Of a DNA stretch of 35,087 bases, positions 4,425 through 33,248 are shown in pieces. The notes below the pieces were generated by a model that made no database searches, was not told the origin of the DNA, and saw nothing but the letters and a program-made list of their open reading frames with translations. Position 1 is the first letter of the stretch; every line of letters starts with the position of its first letter. This stretch comes from an uncultured Lachnospiraceae bacterium (lineage in GTDB: Bacteria; Bacillota; Clostridia; Lachnospirales; Lachnospiraceae), in contig ONHG01000025.1 in the NCBI GenBank assembly GCA_900317585.1, positions 1-35,087 on the forward strand, read 5' to 3'. The position numbers and the translations under genes are program-made.

Positions 4425-4475
4425 AGCCCTTCCTCATTTTATATTAACTATATCATTTTTTTATTATCACAGCAA
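4425..4475 (-). promoter_or_regulatory. Possible promoter for ptuAB
   Basis: On the minus strand a TTGCTG followed by 17 bases and TATAGT lies upstream of ptuA. Both hexamers are imperfect, so this is a weak call. Confidence 0.3.
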
Positions 4476-4504
4476 CCTTTCCGTAACACTACAGAAATTT
4501 TTGA

Positions 4505-4536
4505 TGTATAAATGATGTAAACATCATTTTTTATAC
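4505..4536. repeat. Palindrome between hemZ and ptuA
   Basis: Perfect 9-base arms (aaatgatgt at 4510-4518 and acatcattt at 4521-4529) with a two-base centre, and partly matching outer gtat/atac. On the hemZ strand no good T run follows, so it is a weak terminator at best. It may instead be a regulator site for ptuAB. Confidence 0.45.
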
Positions 4537-28848: not shown

Positions 28849-30246
28849 TTAAAGTATTGTATCTTTAATAATTAGTAGCTTTTCCATTATCCTGTCTGCA
28901 TCAATATTTGAATAATTGATAATAAACTGATGCCTGTCTTCCTTTGGCTTACTCAGATTGAAATAGGTAATCGCCTGAAGCTTTATACCTTTTTTCAATA
29001 GCAGCTCTTCAACTGTTTTGTCCGGAAGGTTCGTGTCAAACTGTATGATAAAATGCAGTCCGGAGTCATTTTCTATTACCCTGCATTCCTTTTCAGTGAA
29101 GCAGCCTTTTATGGACGAAAGCACGCTCTGGCGCTTTCTGCCGTAGTGCAGTCTCATCCTGTTTATGTGCTTTTCAAAATAGCCCTCGCTGATAAATCGT
29201 GCCAGCGTATACTGCTCGAAGGTGGATACCGTACATGAGTAAAATGAAAGCCTCCTGTAAAACTCATTTGCCAGATGCTCCGGCAGCACCATGTAGCTGA
29301 TTCGTATGGTGGATGTGAGAGATTTTGAAAATGTATTTATATAGATGACCTTTTCACACGCATCTATCGAGAGGATGGGCGGTATCGGGTGTCCGTTCAT
29401 GCGAAACTCACTGTCATAATCATCCTCTATGATGTATCTGTCGCTGCTCTCGTTGGCCCATGCCAAAAGCTCATAGCGGCGGTTTACAGGCATCGTGATT
29501 CCTGTCGGGAAATGGTGTGTCGGGCTGATATGTGCTATCTGCGCGTTCGCTTTCTTTATAAGCTCCACGCTGATGCCCTGCTCATCCATCTGCACCGGCA
29601 GGCATTTTGCATTGTTGCACTCGTATATCTGGCTGATTTTCTTATAGCCCGGATCCTCCACGCAGTATACCTTGTCCGTACCCAAAAGCTTCACAAGCAG
29701 TCCGTACAGATACTCTGTTCCCGCTCCGACTATTATCTGGTCCGGGTCCACATTCATACCGCGAAACGATGACAGATGGCTTGCTATCGCTTCCCGAAGC
29801 TCTCTCACTCCGCCACACGGCGACACCGACAAAAGCTCCTGCTCCCTAAGGGAAATCGTCTCTCGCATGAGCTTTGCCCATATGGAAAACGGAAAGTTAC
29901 CCGAGTCTGTCCTGTTTGATGAGAAGTCAAATATACTTTCATCCTGCTCAGGTGGCAGCTTTATGCTCAGCTCCTTCTGCACCGGTGCCTTGATTACCCT
30001 GATATCTGACACATCGGCTATGAAATAGCCCCTCTTTGGTCTTGCAAACATATAGCCCTCGCCTATCAACTGGTCATATGCATTTTCAACCGTAATGGTA
30101 CTAATCCCCAGATTCTTGGCGAGGGTACGCTTTGATGGCATTTTCTCCCCGGAGCTTAATTTTCCCTGTGATATATCGTTTTTAATGCACTCATAAAGGC
30201 ATTTGTAGAGTGGTCCGTCTGTTTTTGTGAGGTCGTAGGTCAGCAT
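28849..30246 (-). CDS. pdxR: PdxR-type MocR regulator of B6 synthesis
   Basis: A 465-residue fusion of a GntR winged helix (residues about 10-75: EKMPSKRTLAKNLGISTITVENAYDQLIGEGYMFARPKRGYF) and a class I aminotransferase-like domain (GAGTEYLYGLLVKLL, IEDDYDSEFRMNG, INTFSKSLTSTIRISYMVLP; the lysine in SKSL would hold pyridoxal phosphate). MocR proteins of this kind sense pyridoxal phosphate and activate pdxST while repressing themselves (known in related Firmicutes and Actinobacteria). It is divergent from pdxST, which supports the PdxR call. The ATG at 30246 follows GGTGA; a GTG at 30255 is the alternative. Confidence 0.88.
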   Translation of the reverse strand: MLTYDLTKTDGPLYKCLYECIKNDISQGKLSSGEKMPSKRTLAKNLGISTITVENAYDQLIGEGYMFARPKRGYFIADVSDIRVIKAPVQKELSIKLPPEQDESIFDFSSNRTDSGNFPFSIWAKLMRETISLREQELLSVSPCGGVRELREAIASHLSSFRGMNVDPDQIIVGAGTEYLYGLLVKLLGTDKVYCVEDPGYKKISQIYECNNAKCLPVQMDEQGISVELIKKANAQIAHISPTHHFPTGITMPVNRRYELLAWANESSDRYIIEDDYDSEFRMNGHPIPPILSIDACEKVIYINTFSKSLTSTIRISYMVLPEHLANEFYRRLSFYSCTVSTFEQYTLARFISEGYFEKHINRMRLHYGRKRQSVLSSIKGCFTEKECRVIENDSGLHFIIQFDTNLPDKTVEELLLKKGIKLQAITYFNLSKPKEDRHQFIINYSNIDADRIMEKLLIIKDTIL

Positions 30247-30296
30247 TTGATTCACCGCTTTCTGGCATTTTTATTTTCCTTATTTTGAATATTTTA

Positions 30297-30325
30297 ATAT
30301 TACCAGATGTAGTGTATTATTGCAA
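30297..30325 (-). promoter_or_regulatory. Promoter of pdxR, overlapping a rightward -10
   Basis: On the minus strand TTGCAA (30320-30325), a 17-base spacer and TAATAT (30297-30302). On the plus strand TATTAT (30315-30320), lacking a good -35, could start pdxST when PdxR is bound. The two overlap, so one regulator could control both. Confidence 0.5.
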
Positions 30326-30339
30326 CCATGATATGCGGC

Positions 30340-30622
30340 TGGTGTGAGCAAATACAGCCCGGCGGCGCAGGCGACGTATACACTCTCGTGTTCGCTACGC
30401 TTTGCTGCCAAGATACTGTAAGAATTATGCCTTATAGGTTTTCTATGGCAGACGAAACCGTCGCTACTCGCCCTCCATGGCTCGATAGCTCCTTGCCCCG
30501 GCTTCCATGCCGGTGCATTTCTGGTTTTCTTGGGCATAATTCAACAGTATCTAAGCAGCTCCGCTATGCGCTCTCACGAGAGTGTACTCGCCGCCTGCGC
30601 CACCTAAACATATCTGCTTACG
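30340..30622. repeat. Large imperfect palindromic element in the pdxST leader
   Basis: About 280 bases that fold back on themselves. The best outer block, 30361-30390, pairs with 30575-30604 at 26 of 30 positions. A second block, 30411-30431, pairs with 30533-30552. Weaker pairing with many transitions continues to about 30340 and 30622. The centre holds a smaller hairpin (CCGGC-TTCCAT-GCCGG). GC content is above that of the flanks. Open frames on both strands are by-products of the symmetry. It is probably a REP/MITE-like repeat, or a structured RNA. Confidence 0.7.
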
Positions 30623-30644
30623 CCTGACTACTTTCGTCATATAA

Positions 30645-30686
30645 ATGATTAAAGGGGCAAAATACCTTTTGACCCTCATATCATAT
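30645..30686 (+). repeat. 42-bp palindromic repeat, copy 1 (before pdxS)
   Basis: Matches copy 2 after pdxT at 40 of 42 positions. The core pairs GGGGCAAAA with TTTTGACCC (one G-A mismatch) around four bases. Confidence 0.75.
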
Positions 30687-30734
30687 AAATTGATGCAAAA
30701 ATACAAATGCAAAAAACAAAAGGAGATTTAACAA

Positions 30735-31619
30735 ATGGAGAACAATAAGAATACTCAATACGAACTCAACAAAGGTCTTGCGCAGATGCTAAAAGGCGGT
30801 GTCATCATGGATGTCACGACTCCGGAACAGGCCAGGATTGCCGAGGCTGCCGGTGCATGTGCTGTTATGGCGCTTGAGAGAATCCCTGCTGATATAAGAG
30901 CCGCAGGCGGTGTTTCAAGAATGAGCGATCCTAAGATGATTAAAGGCATTCAGGAAGCTGTCAGCATCCCCGTCATGGCAAAGTGCCGTATCGGTCACTT
31001 CGTGGAGGCTCAGGTGCTCGAGGCTATCGAGATTGACTACATTGACGAGTCTGAGGTGCTTTCACCTGCTGATGATGTGTACCATATCAATAAGAGAGAT
31101 TTCAAGGTGCCTTTCGTATGTGGTGCAAGAGATCTCGGTGAGGCTCTCCGCCGTATCAACGAGGGAGCTTCCATGATCCGTACAAAGGGTGAGCCCGGTA
31201 CAGGTGATATCGTGCAGGCTGTCAGACATATGAGAAAGATGAATTCTGAGATTGCAAAACTTACTTCCATGCGTGAGGACGAGCTTTTCGAGGCAGCTAA
31301 AAATCTTCAGGTGCCTTTCGAGCTGGTCAAGTTTGTTCACGATAACGGCAAGCTTCCTGTTGTAAACTTTGCGGCAGGCGGTGTGGCTACTCCGGCTGAT
31401 GCGGCTCTTATGATGCAACTCGGTGCTGAGGGTGTGTTCGTCGGTTCAGGTATCTTCAAGTCAGGCGATCCTGCCAAGAGAGCTGCCGCTATCGTAAAAG
31501 CTGTGACAAACTTTACTGATGCAAAGCTCATCGCAGAGCTTTCTGAGGATCTCGGTGAGGCTATGGTCGGAATCAACGAAAGCGAGATTAAAATCATCAT
31601 GGAAGAAAGAGGCAAATAA
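30735..31619 (+). CDS. pdxS: Pyridoxal 5'-phosphate synthase lyase subunit PdxS
   Basis: A 294-residue barrel enzyme. The order [56 protein letters not shown] is the standard PdxS N-terminus. [14 protein letters not shown]-like, [23 protein letters not shown] and [31 protein letters not shown] follow. It condenses ribose 5-phosphate, glyceraldehyde 3-phosphate and ammonia into pyridoxal phosphate in a 12+12 complex with PdxT, which provides the ammonia. AGGAG lies before the ATG. The stop and the pdxT start are one base apart. Confidence 0.97.
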
Positions 31620-31620
31620 A

Positions 31621-32211
31621 ATGAAATCAGGACTTAAGATTGGTGTTTTAGCCGTTCAGGGAGCGTTTATTGAGCACAAGCGCATGCTTGAGTCTCTCGG
31701 GTGCGAATGTGTAGAGCTGCGCCAGAAATCAGATATCTGTGACTTAGACGGACTCGTGCTGCCGGGCGGCGAGAGCACTGTGCAGGGCAAGCTGCTCCGT
31801 GAACTTGATATGTTTGATGAGCTTAAAGAAAAAATCACAAACGGACTTCCGGTGCTTGCAACCTGCGCCGGTCTTATCCTTTTAGCTTCACATATCAGCA
31901 ACGATGACAACGTATATTTCGGCACTCTGCCTGTCACTGTTAAAAGAAATGCCTACGGCAGACAGCTTGGAAGCTTTGAGGCCACAGCAAGGTTTGACAA
32001 TAGCTTTGACTTTACCATGACATTTATCAGAGCACCTTACGTGGAAGCTATTGATGCTTCAGCAAAGAATGATGTGCGTGTACTCGCAGAGTATGACGGC
32101 AAAATTGTCGGTGTGCAGTATAAGAACCAGATTGGGCTGGCTTTTCATCCGGAGCTTGATGATGATACACGGATTCATGAGAGGTTTTTGGAGATGATAT
32201 CGGGAAATTAA
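31621..32211 (+). CDS. pdxT: Pyridoxal 5'-phosphate synthase glutaminase subunit PdxT
   Basis: A 196-residue class I glutamine amidotransferase. IGVLAVQGAFIEHKRML and VLPGGESTV are family marks. The nucleophile is C82 in TCAGLILLA, and the other triad members are H176 and E178 in FHPEL. It releases ammonia from glutamine and passes it through a tunnel to PdxS. The ATG at 31621 directly follows the pdxS stop (TAAAATG). An open frame extends back into pdxS but is not used. Confidence 0.97.
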   Translation: MKSGLKIGVLAVQGAFIEHKRMLESLGCECVELRQKSDICDLDGLVLPGGESTVQGKLLRELDMFDELKEKITNGLPVLATCAGLILLASHISNDDNVYFGTLPVTVKRNAYGRQLGSFEATARFDNSFDFTMTFIRAPYVEAIDASAKNDVRVLAEYDGKIVGVQYKNQIGLAFHPELDDDTRIHERFLEMISGN

Positions 32212-32225
32212 ATCACGTCTATATT

Positions 32226-32267
32226 ATGATTAAAGGGTCAAAATATCTTTTGACCCTCATATCATAT
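32226..32267 (+). repeat. 42-bp palindromic repeat, copy 2 (after pdxT)
   Basis: Core GGGTCAAAA-TATC-TTTTGACCC is a perfect 9-base stem. Same orientation as copy 1. It is only 15 bases after the pdxT stop and may also stabilise or end the message. Confidence 0.75.
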
Positions 32268-32503: not shown

Positions 32504-32845
32504 ATGCCAAAAGCTATGTATAATCTGATTGGACAATACATTGAAGAAATCAAAAAAATTTATGGTTCACATGTCAGACAGATTATTTTATATGGTTCGT
32601 ATGCCAGAGGCGATTTCAGACCTGACTCAGATATAGATATTATGATTTTGGTTGATATGTCAGATATTGATCTTAAATCTTATGGTGAGAAGCTTTCCTA
32701 TATGACATATGACTTTAATCTGGATCATGACATTGACATAAAACCAATTGCCAAAAGTGAAGAGATTTTTAATAAGTGGGTAGTAAATTATCCATTTTAT
32801 TCAAATATTCATAAAGAGGGGGTTATACTATATGGAGCCGCATGA
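32504..32845 (+). CDS. mntA: MNT nucleotidyltransferase antitoxin (MntA-like)
   Basis: A 113-residue minimal nucleotidyltransferase. GSYARGDFRPDSDIDIMIL contains the GSX10DXD active-site pattern. The later HDIDIKPI supplies the third acidic residue. In type VII pairs such an enzyme transfers AMP to a tyrosine of the HEPN toxin and silences it (known for MntA/HepT). AGGAGGGG lies before the ATG. It overlaps the HEPN gene by 14 bases, so the two are co-translated with the antitoxin first. Confidence 0.88.
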   Translation: MPKAMYNLIGQYIEEIKKIYGSHVRQIILYGSYARGDFRPDSDIDIMILVDMSDIDLKSYGEKLSYMTYDFNLDHDIDIKPIAKSEEIFNKWVVNYPFYSNIHKEGVILYGAA

Positions 32846-33248
32846 TGTAGAAATTGGTACAAGAAGAGATCTTGTTCTATATAGAATTGAAACCTCAAAG
32901 AATGACTTAAAATCCGCAAAGGTGCTATTGTCTATTGATGATTATAAAGGAGCAAATAACAGAGCCTACTATGCAATTTTTCATGCTATAAATGCAGTAC
33001 ATGCTACTAGTGGAAAAGCATATAAGAGACACAAGGATGCAATAGCTAATTTTAATAAAGACTATGTTAAAACAGAAATTTTTCCCAGAGAAATAGGAAG
33101 AAAAATTGGAATGGCAGAGGAAATTCGTCATGCAAGCGATTATGATGATTTTTATATTGCAAGCAGAGAAGAAGCAGAGCGGCAAATTACAGTTGCAGAA
33201 GAATTTATAAATCTTGTCGAAAAATATTGTGAGAAACAGCTCGATTAA
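32832..33248 (+). CDS. hepT: HEPN domain toxin (HepT-like)
   Basis: A 138-residue helical HEPN protein. NNRAYYAIFHAINAVHA includes the R-X6-H motif of HEPN ribonucleases (arginine in NRAYY, histidine in IFH). The two adjacent tyrosines are candidate targets for AMP transfer by the partner. The remainder (DLKSAKVLLSIDDYKGA, AEEFINLVEKY) matches the common HEPN fold. A GAGGGGG site precedes the ATG. The pair is more AT-rich than the pdx genes on its left, consistent with acquisition by transfer. Confidence 0.87.
   Translation: MEPHDVEIGTRRDLVLYRIETSKNDLKSAKVLLSIDDYKGANNRAYYAIFHAINAVHATSGKAYKRHKDAIANFNKDYVKTEIFPREIGRKIGMAEEIRHASDYDDFYIASREEAERQITVAEEFINLVEKYCEKQLD

Follow-up and report, generated by a model that had tools for sequence, protein, structure and literature searches.

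Palindrome in the probable pdxST leader

The locus raises the question of what a palindrome of ∼280 bp is doing in the probable 5′ leader of the B6 synthesis genes pdxST. A preliminary description, made from the sequence alone, had considered it to be either a mobile non-coding repeat or a structured RNA that now controls B6 synthesis. The explanation that we favour, at somewhat better than even confidence, is that the palindrome is a repeat enclosing a possibly CsrA-binding RNA, that its arms are kept matched by exchange at the level of DNA, and that the copy at pdxST is an antisense passenger. The window (the whole stretch of 35 087 nucleotides that was analysed) has the following features around the palindrome:

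28849–30255, minus strand: pdxR, MocR-like regulator (NF052282)
30262–30320, plus strand: pdx operator/promoter-like block with a TATTAT box at 30315–30320 (alignment with nine relatives; promoter function presumed)
30341–30624, no strand assigned: the palindromic repeat in full, with RNA core and both outer arms (inverted repeat and folding)
30341–30396, no strand assigned: outer arm, 3′ side of the RNA strand (inverted repeat; inner edge is the RF01731 edge)
30397–30566, minus strand: TwoAYGGAY RNA core, RF01731 (Rfam match, 135.5 bits)
30473–30478, minus strand: hexaloop AUGGAG of apical hairpin 2, C-G closed (sequence; family pattern)
30503–30508, minus strand: hexaloop AUGGAA of apical hairpin 1, C-G closed, CsrA-type (sequence; family pattern)
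30567–30624, no strand assigned: outer arm, 5′ side of the RNA strand (inverted repeat; inner edge is the RF01731 edge)
30651–30682, no strand assigned: second short palindromic repeat, also at 32232–32263 behind pdxT (24 genome matches)
30720–30725, plus strand: AAGGAG, presumed pdxS ribosome site (sequence)
30735–31619, plus strand: pdxS (NCBIfam NF003215)
31519–32211, plus strand: ORF holding pdxT, true start probably ATG at 31621 (TIGR03800 over residues 40–225)

Identity of the palindrome

The palindrome is real, and the borders first proposed for it (30340–30622) were good to within a few bases. An inverted-repeat search of the window returned arms at 30341–30390 and 30575–30624 (50 nt, 74 % complementary). 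The region 30330–30640 was folded to −141.8 kcal mol−1 on the plus strand (z −10.5) and to −154.7 kcal mol−1 on the minus strand (z −10.1); none of 100 dinucleotide shuffles was as low in either case. When all Rfam families were run against the window at their curated thresholds, the sole match was RF01731 (TwoAYGGAY) on the minus strand, from 30566 to 30397 (135.5 bits, gathering threshold 43, model positions 1–168). By this match, the palindrome belongs to a described RNA family, so far unexplained in function, and its RNA strand runs opposite to pdxST. The copy scores above the gathering threshold over the full model and has both apical hairpins; its A-Y-G-G-A loops are AUGGAA and AUGGAG, with A or G as the sixth base and not the pyrimidine of the name.

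TwoAYGGAY was first listed in 2010 (PMC2864571), where its table row, in the accessible part of that source, reads y, n, n, under a second column whose legend begins with "cis". Rfam labels the family Cis-reg. This label, which is not part of the model, does not apply here: the pdx copy is antisense to pdxST, and all four gene arrangements occur among TwoAYGGAY copies (crude ORF calls). The Rfam entry shares with the pdx copy the two GGA hexaloop hairpins; it differs in being a 168 nt model, whereas the match in this genome is the tip of a dispersed palindrome of ∼280 bp with hypervariable arms, which takes either orientation to its neighbouring genes and has its core inverted in some copies. 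An older TwoAYGGAY model had a further, poorly conserved external stem, according to the available text of PMC4333381.

Copies and distribution

A search for further copies, as the preliminary description had suggested, found 33 RF01731 matches in this genome (G000, 86.6 % complete) and 49 in the related genome G015 (one contig of 3 449 685 bp). By using the window copy as a blastn query, 38 matches were obtained in G000, including the copy itself and two matches to its own opposite arm. RF01731 matches occurred in at least 30 of 145 relatives and in at least 27 of 293 class-wide genomes, with G000 included in both counts, stricter filters applied and at most 17 or 9 candidates, respectively, scored per genome; 9 of the 27 class-draw genomes had no match above the Rfam threshold.

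Among the matches listed, copies whose starts lie within ∼750 bp of each other formed eight independent close pairs, at loci L111, L113, L171, L178, L179, L180, L153 and L157; all are divergent, with the RNA strands pointing apart. Two other close sets were among the matches listed: three tandem copies in G015, and a tandem pair in G332, both scores of which lie below the Rfam threshold. Some spacers between close copies hold repeated sequence resembling left ends. A phage origin was rejected, no phage record having matched a 212-base DNA query, as was a plasmid origin, one 252 kb Agathobacter rectalis plasmid having matched the same query in four places.

Strand bias of mismatches

Mismatches were sorted, as read on the RNA strand, into G-U and A-C, a count that separates RNA-like selection from strand-neutral upkeep. 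The core helices gave a G-U to A-C ratio of 48:12 (39:6 plus 9:6 in two alignments) and the apical hairpins 25:2, with pairs partly shared with the core-helix count and 51 of 246 hairpins not located. The outer arms, from isolated mismatches only, gave 53:45 (34:19 in G000/G015, 19:26 elsewhere). The difference from the arms was significant for the core (p 0.001) and for the hairpins (p 0.0002). Core mismatches are thus G-U-biased on one strand, which is RNA-like, and arm mismatches are strand-neutral, which is DNA-like. In cruder counts the basal core stem showed no strand bias (83:82), and the arms stood at 134:104; in the isolated-mismatch count the basal core stem gave 4:2. The aligned counts are preferred; the core columns in them were picked by RNAalifold, which may slightly favour G-U. 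Orthologous copies of G000 and G015 were counted once for the core-helix and isolated-mismatch tallies, and were both counted for arm identity, gene arrangement and the cruder mismatch, hairpin and hexaloop tallies. Seven copies from G122, which belongs to another family of the order, and six broken G015 copies were excluded from the mismatch and hexaloop counts.

For the pdx copy, many transitions that keep G-U pairing had been claimed. The claim depends on the strand: on the minus (TwoAYGGAY) strand, the mismatches within 70 nt either side of the RNA core comprise 8 G-U against 3 A-C, with 13 others.

Outer arms

In 76 G000/G015 copies (82 less the six G015 copies broken by an intron or insert), the 45 nt flanking the core on each side were compared as inverted repeats. 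Within a copy, the left arm agreed with the reverse-complemented right arm at a mean of 37.0 of 45 bases (range 28–42), compared with 16.8 of 45 for arms of different copies and 16.6 of 45 for shuffled arms. A local alignment over 70 nt was stricter: 24 or more arm bases matched in 71 of 76 G000/G015 copies and in 43 of 47 copies of other genomes; of the seven copies in G122, none reached this number. The pdx copy has arms among the worst matched (29 of 45). A loose arm consensus exists inside one genome; between genomes the arms are unrelated by eye. RF01731 is therefore the tip of a palindrome of ∼280 bp, the arms of which pair within a copy and differ between copies.

Among 24 ortholog pairs of G000 and G015, both arms had changed to a new pair in 37 of 1105 columns. 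A single ortholog pair with wholly different arms (C16_94699/2999324) supplied 21 of these 37; after its removal, 16 double-change columns stood against ∼6 expected by our own arithmetic, which counts any two-sided change and assumes independence. One-sided changes that make or break a pair numbered 108 and were more frequent than compensated ones. Compensated arm changes are also visible by eye in an ortholog pair of G060 and G075.

Hexaloops and CsrA

CsrA binding has been proposed for TwoAYGGAY, reportedly by Gardner and Eldai. Two ANGGAN hexaloops on at least three pairs, with loop starts 28–30 nt apart, were present in 91 of 123 cores, and the closing pair was C-G in all 182 of these loops, i.e. 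they have the form C[ANGGAN]G. On the complementary strand, no core out of 123 had two hexaloops and two had one; among shuffled cores none had two and eight had one. The remaining 32 cores lack two intact hexaloops. In G093, which has CsrA, the loop of hairpin 1 is devoid of GGA in five of seven copies, as is that of hairpin 2 in four of these five. The pdx copy has two C-G-closed GGA hexaloops, as expected by sequence of a CsrA-binding decoy.

Hexaloops of the type CANGGANG are high-affinity targets of CsrA/RsmE, with an optimal spacing of 18 nt, in the accessible portion of PMC4894983. The ANGGAN loop and spacings above 18 nt are reviewed in the available part of PMC7652899, with which the TwoAYGGAY cores are consistent; the same portion describes most selected hairpins as having at most four pairs, fewer than the TwoAYGGAY hairpins. 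The proposal that TwoAYGGAY binds CsrA is made in the accessible text of PMC4333381.

Two CsrA (PF02599) matches were found in G000. CsrA was present in 52 of 55 family-positive and in 48 of 65 negative genomes (Fisher p 0.003, uncorrected for kinship, the genomes not being independent). The negatives are not a random set: they comprise 48 genomes without RF01731 among the matches listed, which were presumably searched in full, and 17 of the 20 listed class-draw negatives, the other three having been in the first CsrA set already. Two family-positive genomes, each more than 90 % complete, had no CsrA match: G297, the listed RF01731 matches of which are below the threshold, and G418. CsrA is common in the group regardless of TwoAYGGAY.

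CsrB, RsmZ and their relatives are decoy RNAs that bind CsrA/RsmA. TwoAYGGAY resembles them in its C-G-closed GGA hexaloops, in a spacing compatible with a CsrA dimer and in the presence of a CsrA gene in nearly all family-positive genomes tested; it differs in that those decoys are one RNA with many sites, whereas TwoAYGGAY occurs as many dispersed copies with two putative sites each. As judged from these motifs, a decoy that binds CsrA would be the likeliest role of the core.

Mobility and a group II intron

The notion of a mobile non-coding repeat held in part: the element is dispersed, with its 33 copies in G000 and its absence from 16 of 18 pdxS loci, but the comparisons did not demonstrate active transposition. 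Neither the four G000/G015 sites compared in detail nor the nine stretches covering the ten unmatched copies searched contained a clean empty site showing a target duplication. Of the four sites, one is a bare hairpin left after core loss, one a partial deletion, and two contain remnant pieces or other sequence; some of the six other unmatched copies were without a full counterpart in the stretches. The site differences between G000 and G015 resemble deletion, core loss or replacement of the element.

Two sites may be described individually. At C15 of G000 (L135, ∼4450–4530) there is a bare two-arm hairpin where G015 has a full element at the same site. Copy C16:94699 of G000 and copy 2999324 of G015 occupy the same site and have similar ends, with different arms and core, a difference attributable to re-insertion or to replacement by another copy.

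A group II intron of 1905 bp is inserted in four G015 copies (L189, L190, L191 and L192; 98.5–100 % alike), each time at one core position, on the antisense strand, ∼12 bases past the complement of hairpin 1. The one intron copy tested has a reverse transcriptase domain, and Rfam group II domains are present in all three that were searched. Two G000 counterparts of intron-bearing copies were identified, both intron-free. Since the intron has repeatedly entered a single core position, the element DNA is suggested to form hairpins. A DNA stem-loop is the target of group IIC introns, one of them from E. rectale, according to the available part of PMC10190682, and the G015 intron is probably of this class. 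Two further G015 copies (2039595 and 2042526, L126) have a similar insert of ∼120 nt inside apical hairpin 1.

REP/BIME and ERIC elements are short intergenic palindromes in tens of copies. TwoAYGGAY elements share these properties and differ in being longer, in having an RNA-like conserved core and in having arms of no fixed sequence. A plain REP/MITE-like mobile DNA, that is, a non-autonomous transposon moved in trans whose core structure is needed as single-stranded DNA, would account for the high and patchy copy number, for the similar end sequences outside the arms of many copies, for arms that are alike inside genomes and not across genomes, and for the divergent gene arrangement being the rarest (11 of 76; crude ORF calls, element-overlapping ORFs set aside). 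We consider it unlikely, while giving it more weight than any other alternative: at the G000/G015 sites compared, neither a target duplication nor a clean empty site was found, and the core mismatches are G-U-biased on one strand, a pattern that G-T pairing in single-stranded DNA could, however, mimic.

Inversion of the core in place

The favoured explanation, a possible CsrA-binding RNA in a repeat with arms matched at the DNA level, draws on a comparison of orthologous copies. Counterparts were assigned from flanking matches of 150 bases or more, and 26 of the 33 G000 copies had one in G015. Twenty of these have the same orientation, 16 by both flanks and four by one. In the other six, the core is inverted between flanks of 930 bp that match on both sides at 85–99 %. 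Aligned in their own orientation, the inverted cores are identical at 157–168 of 167–170 positions; with the flanks kept in register, they agree in 96–113 of 177–185 alignment columns. For four of the six, the 30 bases beside the arms clearly track the flanks; the exceptions are C31 and one side of C44, where these bases align poorly either way and the inversion rests on the longer flanks. The core has thus been inverted in place in one genome pair, G000/G015. The longest exact inverted repeat is 13–23 bp in five of the six inverted G000 copies and 51 bp in C31. As exact repeats of at most 23 bp are presumably too short to mislead a usual assembler, five of the six are unlikely to be assembly errors; C31 is doubtful. 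No inversion was seen in two further genome pairs with partial copy lists, G071/G004 (one ortholog, by one flank) and G060/G075 (one full ortholog).

The following course of events would fit. The 5′ leader of pdxST probably acquired a repeat bearing TwoAYGGAY before G000 and G015 diverged. The inner ∼170 nt of the repeat would be a structured RNA, specific to one strand, with two hairpins that end in GGA hexaloops, most plausibly a CsrA decoy, and its outer arms, mostly some 25–60 bp, DNA without a fixed sequence. The arms may stay matched through arm-to-arm exchange in hairpin or cruciform DNA, by template switching or recombination, and the same exchange would occasionally flip the core. Template switching between inverted repeats leads to arm homogenisation and spacer inversion, the two features met here, according to the accessible part of PMC8604942; the yeast coding cases described in that part involve spacer changes of 2–5 bases, compared with a core of ∼170 bp inverted in six copies here. 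Template switching can also create and maintain RNA hairpins, by the title of PMC8794818. Ordinary recombination between the arms would give a pattern similar to that of template switching. In the one literature collection searched, no report of such arms or inversions was found for TwoAYGGAY or for the rectale palindromic repeats.

TwoAYGGAY has been without an assigned function since its listing in 2010; its place at the tip of a palindrome, the flip and the split in strand bias give it a testable anatomy and a candidate role as a CsrA decoy. The arms are a natural example of long stems that are seemingly kept paired at the DNA level, and caution is therefore needed in taking covariation as proof of selection on RNA.

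The inversions could instead be the work of an inverton, in which a site-specific recombinase acting at the core edges, and not arm-to-arm exchange, turns the core. The near identity of most inverted cores (157–168 of 167–170 positions) agrees with this mechanism, which is nevertheless improbable, as core edges and arms differ between genera and the six neighbouring ORFs scanned include no recombinase.

Setting at pdxST

At pdxST, the favoured reading is that of an antisense passenger. The window was aligned with nine pdx leaders, which we chose from 16 pdxS loci without the element; all share a conserved block at ∼30262–30320 that ends in a TATTAT/TATAAT-like box. This promoter-like block upstream upholds the placement, made in the preliminary description, of the element between the pdxR/pdxST promoter zone and pdxS. 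The element starts 21 bases past the TATTAT box and ends 96 bases ahead of the ribosome site; in most of the nine leaders the pdxS ribosome site is within tens of bases of the box, two leaders being longer. Because the element sits between the promoter-like block and the ribosome site, the pdxST transcript, with promoter and start site as the alignment suggests them, probably includes the complement of TwoAYGGAY, a large hairpin without GGA loops.

In a draw of 60 genomes of the genus, 18 (G000 among them) had a pdxS match. Comparison of the pdxR–pdxS intervals, also proposed at the outset, found RF01731 at pdxRS in two of these 18 loci, in G000 and in G015, with the same orientation in both; no match was found in the other 16. 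Among these 16, the G025 locus starts inside pdxS, that of G032 reaches ∼260 bases upstream of it, and in several the upstream genes are others, with no divergent pdxR there. The idea of a structured RNA controlling B6 synthesis is not supported: the conserved RNA is antisense to pdxST, copies occur beside other genes in all four orientations, and the pdx copy is known from two close genomes only. A B6 riboswitch or pdx-specific leader was dropped because the RNA is on the opposite strand and was found in two of 18 pdxS loci.

A broader version, in which the hairpin is a cis-acting leader RNA that tunes translation or mRNA stability of pdxST and is kept for that, has slender prospects. It would suit the position of the element, which has a conserved promoter-like block before it and the ribosome site after it, and the copy of the same orientation in G015. 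It has to contend with an mRNA that carries the complement of the conserved RNA, with the occurrence at two of 18 loci, with arms matched worse than those of most copies and a ribosome site 96 bases downstream, and with a scan of the pdx element that gave nothing clear against shuffles (promoter-like sites 2 versus 1.1, terminator-like sites 2 versus 0.6). The pdxST copy is probably an antisense passenger, incidental to the pdx genes. The hairpin in the pdxST mRNA would probably be tolerated; an effect on pdxST expression is possible, at most a general one on mRNA stability.

There is also a small chance that TwoAYGGAY repeats are self-matching invertible cassettes throughout the genome, in which the arms keep one another alike and a flip sets which strand an adjacent promoter transcribes, the CsrA-binding one or its silent complement. 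In that case a population would comprise numerous combinations of CsrA decoys, spread over different leaders and 3′ ends, and two CsrA sites would enter the leader for B6 synthesis if the pdxST copy flipped.

Other features near pdxST

The second short palindromic repeat flanks pdxST; its 32-base pattern had 24 matches in the genome at no more than three mismatches, compared with none for the reversed control. Further downstream, an ORF at 32504–32845 matches an MntA-like nucleotidyltransferase antitoxin at 39.2 bits, below the curated cut-off of 60, and is followed by a small ORF at 32832–33248 with no NCBIfam match. By sequence, the two together resemble a type VII toxin–antitoxin pair.
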